A DNA stretch of 64,000 nt from assembly GCA_937922785.1 (NCBI GenBank), contig CALAJQ010000012.1, forward strand, positions 124,001-188,000, in the 5' to 3' direction. Below are positions 38,830 through 49,501 of this stretch, one piece after another. A model generated the notes under the pieces. That model ran no database searches, was not told the origin of the DNA, and saw only the letters and a program-made list of their open reading frames with translations. The translations under genes and the position numbers were made by a program. Numbering within the stretch: the stretch's first letter is position 1; every line of letters begins with the position of its first letter. Origin of the DNA: an uncultured Acidimicrobiales bacterium (GTDB taxonomy: Bacteria; Actinomycetota; Acidimicrobiia; Acidimicrobiales; SZUA-35).

Positions 38830-39006
38830 TGCCCCCTCTGTCCGGTTACCTGAGAGCGTTAGCCCCTTCGGCGATCGACTTCGGCCTATGTGGGACCGAA
38901 CTTGATTCTCTCCAGAGTGATCGAACTTAGCGGTACGGGTGCCTGAGAGTTTCCGGGGCGGTTGCTCCTTCGGCGGGCCGGGAAATCCCGACCTCTCTCC
39001 CAACTA
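38830..39006 (-). promoter_or_regulatory. Tandem glycine riboswitch
   Basis: Read on the minus strand, the leader of gcvT has two aptamer copies. Each has GGAGAG, then CGCCGAAGG-GC, then CTCTCAGG (CTCTCAGGCACCCGTACCG in the 5' copy, CTCTCAGGTAACCGGACAG in the 3' copy). This is the known gcvT-motif arrangement. The 3' copy ends about 30 nt before the gcvT start. Confidence 0.93.
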
Positions 39007-39041
39007 GGTTCATTGATCTTGTTCAGGTTACCTTCTCCGTC

Positions 39042-44495: not shown

Positions 44496-45203
44496 TTAGC
44501 TCAGCTCTATTCGCAGGCGCTTGTTGCCTTTGCCTTTGCTCTCTGTCTTCACAACCTTAAAGGTGCCAACCTCAGAAGTGGACTGAACATGGGTTCCACC
44601 GTCAGCTTGTTTGTCTAGCCCCACGATGTCCACGACACGAATCTCGGTGACGCTTTCTGGGATCAGATTCACCTTGGTGCGAATAAGATCGTCGTCTTGA
44701 AGAGCTACACCTCTTCCCAAGAAACTGACCTCGATCGGGTGGTCGTTGGCGATCTCAATGTTGACCAGCTCTTCCACTCGCTGAGCAAAGCCTTCGGGCA
44801 AAGGATCAAACGCAAAGTCCATCCGACCTTTCAGAGGCTCCATGTTTCCGCCAGTCACCGGCACCTGATACTCGTTCCATATAACGCCGCACAAAATGTG
44901 CATCGCGGTATGGGTGCGCATCAACTGGTGACGTCGTTCCCAATCAAGAGTACCGGTTACCTCAGCTCCAACTTCTGGCATCTCGCCGTCGAGCGTATGC
45001 CAGTGTGATCCGTCAGCCTTACGAACATTGGTGACGTTAGCTGAGCCTGCGGCCCAGGCGAGGCTGCCAGTGTCGTGAGGTTGGCCTCCGCCGGTTGCAT
45101 AGAAAGCAGTTTGATCAAGAGCGACAGCGTCATCGCTCACGGCAGTGACGATGGCAGAGAAAGTCTGGAGCTGAGCGTCTCGTAAGTAGAGCTGGTCGGT
45201 CAT
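44496..45203 (-). CDS. AlaX-type alanyl-tRNA editing protein
   Basis: This 235-aa trans-editing protein hydrolyses mischarged Ser- or Gly-tRNA-Ala. The editing zinc motif HxxxH is in RTHTAMHIL, and the second pair is the GGTHV segment. The OB-like N-terminus with ATGGGQPHDTG is conserved. I chose the ATG ending at 45203; the longer ORF to 45284 would overlap the divergent peroxidase start. Confidence 0.85.
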   Translation of the reverse strand: MTDQLYLRDAQLQTFSAIVTAVSDDAVALDQTAFYATGGGQPHDTGSLAWAAGSANVTNVRKADGSHWHTLDGEMPEVGAEVTGTLDWERRHQLMRTHTAMHILCGVIWNEYQVPVTGGNMEPLKGRMDFAFDPLPEGFAQRVEELVNIEIANDHPIEVSFLGRGVALQDDDLIRTKVNLIPESVTEIRVVDIVGLDKQADGGTHVQSTSEVGTFKVVKTESKGKGNKRLRIELS

Positions 45204-45269: not shown

Positions 45270-45746
45270 ATGAGCGAATTTCACGACCTCTCCATGACGT
45301 CAATCACAGGAGATCAGATCGAATTCAGCACCTTTGCTGACCAGGCAGTCTTGGTGGTAAACGTCGCGAGTCGTTGAGGCCTTACTCCTCAGTACGCAGG
45401 TCTGCGTACGCTTCACAACGAAGTTGAGGGTCTTGTAGTCGCCGCTTTCCCGTGTAATCAATTTGGTGGGCAAGAGCCGGGAACTGACGCTGAGATTCTC
45501 GAATTCGCCACTTCGAACTATGACGCAAACTTTCCGATGTTCTCCAAGATTGACGTCAACGGTGAGCACGAGGCACCTCTGTACTCAATGCTTAAAGCTG
45601 CTCAACCGGGCGACGGCGAAACATCAGACATCGCCTGGAACTTCGAGAAGTTTCTAGTCGGCGCCGACGGAACTGTTCTTGCCCGCTTTGGCCCGCAGGT
45701 TACGCCTGAAGATGTCCGAGAGGCTCTGCCCGCCCTGCTTGGCTAA
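45270..45746 (+). CDS. gpx: Glutathione peroxidase with in-frame TGA (predicted selenoprotein)
   Basis: Reading from ATG 45270 gives 158 residues if the TGA at 45375-45377 is decoded as selenocysteine (Sec36). The flanks NVASR-U-GLTPQYAGL match the GPx catalytic loop, where the residue is Cys or Sec. Downstream FPCNQFGGQEPG (Gln68) and IAWNFEKFL hold the other tetrad residues. The frame stays open for 122 codons after TGA. A SECIS-like hairpin is at 45392-45409. It reduces peroxides with a thiol donor. An unaware gene caller would start at ATG 45537. Selenium genes are not in this window. Confidence 0.82.
45392..45409 (+). promoter_or_regulatory. Bacterial SECIS-like hairpin
   Basis: GTACGC-AGGTCT-GCGTAC is a perfect 6-bp stem with a 6-nt loop, starting 14 nt after the TGA. 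The apex GCAGGTCTGC is what I recall for the E. coli fdhF SECIS loop recognised by SelB. The loop begins 20 nt after the TGA, comparable with fdhF. The bulged U of fdhF is absent. Confidence 0.78.
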
Positions 45747-48623: not shown

Positions 48624-49453
48624 CTATGGCCATTCGTAGAAACCGCGGCCAGTCTTCTTGCCTAGCTTTTGGTCGGCGACCATCTTGAGCAGCAGCTGTG
48701 GAGGTTGGAAGCGGTCTCCCAGTTCGCTGGCCAGATGTTCGGCGATAGCGAGGCGAACGTCGAGCCCGACAAGGTCAGTGAGGCGCAGCGGACCCATCGG
48801 GTGGCGATAGCCCAGCTCCATAGCTTTGTCGATGTCTTCGGCAGAAGCGACGCCGCTTTCGAGCATCCGAATTGCCTCTAAGCCAAGAACCAGTCCCAGC
48901 CGGCTGGATGCGAAGCCGGGTGAGTCGGCTACAACGATCGGTGTCTTGTCGAGGCGCTGGACTAAGTCAGAGACAGTATCGAGAACCGAATCTGTGGTGG
49001 CGGCGCCCATAACGATTTCAACCAACGCAGACACCGGCACTGGGTTAAAGAAGTGGGTGCCGATGAGTCGTTCGGGGTGCAGGAGGCCGTCGGCCATGGC
49101 GGTGATCGAGAGGCTGCTGGTGTTGGAAGCCAAGATGGCCTCGGCCGAAACGAGACCTTCCAAATCTGCAAATAATGCACGCTTGATGCCAAGATCCTCG
49201 GGAATGGCCTCTATCACGATTGCGCACTCGCTTACGTTGTTGAGCCCCACCACCGCTTCGAAACGGGCTAGTGCCACCGCAGTGTCGAGTGCCTCGTTGC
49301 GGCGAGCTAGACGTTCTAGCGAGTTTTGGAGCTGCCTAATGCCGCTTCGGCGCGTACTGGGTCAGATTCAACAAGCACAACGGTTTCCTCTGCCACGAGC
49401 AGGCTGACGGCAATGCCCGCTCCCATTGTTCCGCCTCCGACAACACCGATCAT
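48624..49453 (-). pseudogene. 3-hydroxyacyl-CoA dehydrogenase (PaaH/FadB-like), frameshifted
   Basis: The N-terminal Rossmann segment begins at the ATG ending at 49453 (MIGVVGGGTMGAGIAV then VESDPVRAEAALG). It is in a different frame from the rest, which runs QLQNSLERLARRNEALD and on to a normal C-terminus (GRGFYEWP) at 48624. A one-base deletion near 49325-49345 explains this; the corrected protein would be 276 aa, the usual length. It may be a pseudogene or a sequencing/assembly error. It is divergent from paaZ and belongs with phenylacetate catabolism. Confidence 0.8.
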
Positions 49454-49497
49454 ATGATACTTCCCTAGGTTAGTTTCTCGGTCTTGTAGTATCATAT
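49452..49497. promoter_or_regulatory. Divergent promoter region with 10-bp inverted repeat
   Basis: ATATGATACT (49452-49461) and AGTATCATAT (49488-49497) are perfect inverted arms 36 bp apart, flanking the gap between the 3-hydroxyacyl-CoA dehydrogenase and paaZ. TATCAT (49490-49495) would fit a -10 box with transcription starting at the paaZ ATG. The regulator could be the PaaX of this operon. Confidence 0.6.
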
Positions 49498-49501
49498 CGC
49501 A

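Follow-up and report, generated by a model that had tools for sequence, protein, structure and literature searches.

Whether an in-frame TGA in a bacterial gene is a selenocysteine (Sec) codon, a misread base or a sign of decay is the question raised by a glutathione peroxidase (GPx) locus in the window (the whole 64,000-nucleotide stretch analysed here). Judging from its sequence, from the source genome (4.9 Mb in 45 contigs, 95.7% complete) and from homologues, we consider it very probable that this gene encodes a Sec glutathione peroxidase.

Reading frame and predicted Sec codon

The reading frame and its internal codon are placed as follows:

45270..45746, + strand: coding sequence of the predicted selenoprotein glutathione peroxidase (158 amino acids, Sec as residue 36; PF00255; purifying selection upstream and downstream of that codon)
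45375..45377, + strand: predicted Sec codon (NVASR-U-GLTPQY), a TGA within the frame that homologue alignment places at the peroxidatic position

The frame comprises 158 codons, the sole internal TGA being codon 36, and translates as MSEFHDLSMTSITGDQIEFSTFADQAVLVVNVASR-U-GLTPQYAGLRTLH...LLG-stop, with a UxxT motif (U-G-L-T) at residues 36-39. As the first-pass annotation had stated, 122 codons stay open after the TGA, up to a TAA. Across the window, at least 122 open codons follow 2.1% of all TGA triplets; taken alone, the long open frame is weak evidence for Sec. What carries the case beyond chance, on comparison of sequences, is homology across the TGA, a TGA shared by 27 relatives and a frozen hairpin. 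A profile search matched PF00255 at residues 4-109 (127 bits, E 2.8e-37; gathering cut-off, 27 bits), so homology extends across the TGA; the source genome has no other PF00255 match. The TGA had been assigned to the catalytic Cys/Sec site, and there it aligns with the catalytic Cys of 82 homologues and the TGA of 27. The predicted loss of 89 residues under standard annotation was borne out as well: the only conventional open reading frame at the locus is 45537-45746 (69 amino acids), so the 89 N-terminal residues, active site included, would go unannotated.

Sec machinery and distribution among relatives

The first-pass annotation had named selA, selB and tRNA-Sec as genes to look for, their absence counting as refutation. 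All are present in the source genome, where selA (385 bits, cut-off 268) adjoins selB (296 bits, cut-off 242) and a tRNA-Sec with anticodon TCA is encoded; selD is present too (368 bits, cut-off 125). This selD gene (L019 1405-2448, - strand) carries its own in-frame TGA (HGAGUGCK) followed by a hairpin, and is thus predicted to encode a further selenoprotein, which serves as an internal control.

Across 110 homologues, the column of the Sec codon holds TGA in 28 (window included) and TGC or TGT in 82; the 27 distinct TGA homologues besides the window are separately assembled and mainly from Acidimicrobiia. TGC or TGT in related strains, together with a resequenced base in the window, had likewise been put forward as grounds for rejection, and the closest relatives were found to share the window TGA. 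Among 80 loci from named species, six have TGA (four Acidimicrobiales, one Myxococcota and one Gammaproteobacteria) and the rest TGC or TGT. The gammaproteobacterial GPx L031 (2501-2977) combines TGA with a preserved stem and a different loop; selA was not found in its 2.0 Mb genome, which is perhaps incomplete. In the phylogenetic tree, the 28 Sec sequences and one Cys sequence form a clade (support 100/99) against 81 Cys sequences. The 37 GPx loci on IMG/VR viral contigs (L141-L177) include none with TGA at the Sec site, the peroxidatic position being Cys in 33, Ala in three and Thr in one. At the resolving position of these viral-contig GPx-like genes, 33 have Cys and four do not.

In a survey of the class of the source genome, taken as Acidimicrobiia since its closest named relatives are Acidimicrobiales, GPx was found in 159 of 395 genomes, with TGA within GPx in at least 23, and all 23 listed TGA-GPx genomes have both selA and tRNA-Sec. 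Among genomes with GPx, selA was present and absent in 23 and 0 of those with the Sec form and in 52 and 84 of the others (Fisher 4e-9, with kinship ignored). PF00255 homology across the TGA, the Sec machinery in the genome and the conservation of the TGA in relatives together support the Sec-GPx interpretation originally proposed.

It is very improbable that the gene is a pseudogene, or that sequencing or assembly turned a TGC or TGT into the TGA. Error or decay does occur nearby, to judge from an apparent frameshift in a 3-hydroxyacyl-CoA dehydrogenase gene near 49320; against it as an account of the GPx, the identical TGA recurs in 27 separately assembled homologues, Sec machinery always accompanies TGA-GPx in the surveyed class, and the hairpin is frozen. 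In close pairs, moreover, dN is far below dS both upstream (codons 1-35) and downstream (codons 37-158) of the TGA, by which the coding sequence on both sides is seen to be under purifying selection. Given the conserved TGA and the low dN, we rejected this candidate explanation.

SECIS hairpin

The predicted bacterial Sec insertion element lies within the coding region:

45392..45409, + strand: bacterial SECIS hairpin GUACGCAGGUCUGCGUAC, assigned from folding z, frozen wobble positions and an fdhF-identical core

The hairpin has a 7-bp stem (GUACGCA with UGCGUAC) and a small 4-nt apical loop, GGUC, which contains G, as expected for bacterial SECIS elements; its folding z is about -2.3 to -3.0. 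The first-pass annotation was right that a hairpin follows the TGA and wrong that it does so 'directly': the hairpin begins 14 nt, and its loop 21 nt, past the TGA. Between UGA and hairpin, no conserved fold was found among the Sec genes. The apical core GCAGGUCUGC is identical to that of the Escherichia coli fdhF SECIS (fdhF sequence checked against E. coli genomes), so recognition of the window element by E. coli SelB may be expected. The two elements differ in that the window hairpin is 3 nt farther from UGA, has an uninterrupted 7-bp stem with no counterpart of the unpaired U by which the fdhF stem is broken ahead of its apical part, and lacks an extended lower stem.

SECIS codons 41-45 read CAG TAC GCA GGT CTG in 27 of the 28 Sec genes, and codon 46 is CGT in 24; elsewhere in the same genes, GCA makes up 9% of Ala codons, and GGT and CGT 21% and 17% of the codons for their amino acids. 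Wobble positions in codon columns 41-46 are frozen in Sec genes and variable in Cys genes, and pairwise synonymous change is zero across the six SECIS codons vs 0.33-0.59 per site downstream. No compensatory double changes in the stem were found among the Sec genes, only invariance and one-sided changes, so the support for an RNA element comes from synonymous-site invariance and not from covariation. The Arg at position 46 is found in 27 of 28 Sec-GPxs and in Sec forms only, Cys-GPxs having Glu or Gln; because its codon lies within the SECIS, the RNA element appears to dictate a residue. That a near-cognate or suppressor tRNA decodes the TGA as another residue, Trp or Cys, with no Sec, is exceedingly improbable: tRNA-Sec(UCA), selA, selB and selD are all in the genome, and the conservation of an fdhF-type hairpin would be without reason.

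Genomic neighbourhood

A divergent gene at 44496-45203 (- strand), 66 bp from the GPx start, encodes a protein resembling the alanyl-tRNA editing protein AlaXM, with a score of 258 bits where the cut-off is 300. In relatives, whose available flanks extended no further than a few kb, none of the AlaX, APH and alkyl-sulfatase neighbours was found beside Sec-GPx, so synteny is no help. Elsewhere in the window, a tandem glycine riboswitch (two RF00504 aptamers) occupies 38830-39013 (- strand). In the 3-hydroxyacyl-CoA dehydrogenase gene at 48624-49500 (- strand), the N-terminal part (MIGVVGGGTMGAGIAV...) lies in a different frame from the rest, the apparent frameshift being due to gene decay or to an indel in the assembly.

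Catalytic residues and reductant

Fold and tetrad are identifiable from sequence alone, and three further sites bear on the chemistry of the predicted enzyme:

45459..45461, + strand: Gln64 of the catalytic tetrad, invariant in 110/110 homologues
45507..45509, + strand: Ala80 (EFATSNY vs FCxxNY), aligned with the resolving Cys of 2-Cys GPxs
45636..45641, + strand: Trp123-Asn124 of the catalytic tetrad, invariant in 110/110 homologues

The resolving-Cys position holds Ala, Val or Ile in all 28 Sec-GPxs and Cys in 81 of the 82 sampled Cys-GPxs, a loss in the Sec branch that the first-pass annotation had not noted. The sole Cys-GPx without a resolving Cys is L028 (2262-2729; gammaproteobacterial), which is nested within the Sec clade; its gene keeps TACGCAGGTCT with a broken stem (-2.7 kcal/mol), and selA is still in its genome. 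By sequence, L028 is apparently a Sec form that reverted to Cys and retains a fossil SECIS; in other families, SECIS-like remnants after Cys codons have been described (PMC1794560).

For Sec insertion itself, peroxidase activity and the reductant, we infer the following scheme. SelA and SelD would make Sec-tRNA(UCA); SelB would bind the core-bearing hairpin just past the UGA and bring the Sec-tRNA to the ribosome; and codon 36, UGA, would be decoded as Sec. Its selenolate, positioned by Gln64, Trp123 and Asn124 of the tetrad, would then reduce hydroperoxides, and the resulting selenenic acid would be reduced directly by a small thiol, most plausibly of the mycothiol type, and not via an internal disulfide and thioredoxin.

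The last step turns on the resolving Cys of the Cys block, to which thioredoxin use by GPxs is tied, canonical Sec-GPxs being without one (PMC10084747, PMC2679728). Since that residue is replaced by Ala here, a small thiol is the most likely direct reductant of the selenenic acid, with no internal disulfide formed, as expected of a one-Sec enzyme lacking the Cys to which thioredoxin dependence is attributed; on this sequence evidence we regard small-thiol reduction as reasonably likely. Reduction by thioredoxin or another redoxin, with Cys62 (FPCNQF) or no second residue involved, seems unlikely. It would agree with the description of bacterial GPxs as thioredoxin-dependent (PMC10084747), with the retention of Cys62 in 28 of 28 Sec-GPxs and with the source genome, in which no GCS2-type glutathione ligase was found; against it stand the absence from all 28 Sec-GPxs of the resolving Cys linked to thioredoxin use (PMC10084747, PMC2679728) and the equal retention of Cys62 in Cys-GPxs (80 of 82), which is thus not a compensating change. 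Regarding small-thiol reduction by mycothiol, the source genome encodes an MshA-like protein (417 bits, below the curated cut-off of 462.5) and an MshC-like protein (434.7 bits, below the curated cut-off of 485.1), which scores 349 as cysS; a separate cysS lies elsewhere in the genome.

Relation to known glutathione peroxidases

A bacterial GPx-like selenoprotein family was described already in 2005 (PMC1088965), with five members in the Sargasso Sea (PMC1088965), one in a 2006 genome survey (PMC1794560) and 40 in the GOS data (PMC2398784), and a 2026 review lists the bacterial GPx selenoprotein as UxxT (PMC13188914). Like these proteins (for example, those of Treponema denticola, the Sargasso Sea and GOS; reference protein, WP_010957027.1), the window GPx belongs to PF00255 with Sec at the peroxidatic site, has the U-G-L-T motif and carries its bacterial SECIS within the coding sequence (PMC1088965, PMC2398784, PMC13188914). 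Bacterial Sec-GPx genes are therefore already known but rare, and the window gene adds one to a known family; in the literature searched, we found no papers on Acidimicrobiia members.

With the thioredoxin-dependent bacterial Cys-GPxs (Gpx-like peroxiredoxins), the window protein shares the family, the Cys/Sec-Gln-Trp-Asn tetrad and ~50% identity, but it has Sec for Cys, no resolving Cys and, from a codon within the SECIS, Arg46 in place of the Glu or Gln of the Cys forms. It resembles mammalian GPX4 and other Sec-GPxs in Sec, tetrad, lack of a resolving Cys and a short, monomer-like length; its sequence matches in the PDB include GPX4, the closest solved sequence being yeast Hyr1, of the 2-Cys type. 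Unlike in GPX4, the SECIS is bacterial and within the reading frame rather than in the 3' UTR, and no GCS2-type glutathione ligase was found in the source genome. According to a 2023 survey, every known bacterial GPx is a Cys enzyme that has both peroxidatic and resolving Cys and depends on thioredoxin (PMC10084747), a statement with which the Sec-GPx clade, as identified by sequence, is in conflict.

We tentatively raise the possibility, itself somewhat doubtful, of a widespread, Acidimicrobiia-centred clade of one-Sec GPxs that may have reached the GPX4 design, with mycothiol or another actinobacterial thiol replacing glutathione, and in which the resolving Cys would still be absent after reversion to Cys (L028). 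What is gained is a Sec-GPx branch that is well supported, has a SECIS signature of its own and falls outside the few recorded bacterial cases. Standard annotation cuts off its active site, which may explain why the branch escaped notice. Sec and the resolving Cys replace each other almost perfectly, which makes the reason for selenium use directly testable in bacteria, with L028 available for comparison as an apparent natural reversion from Sec to Cys.
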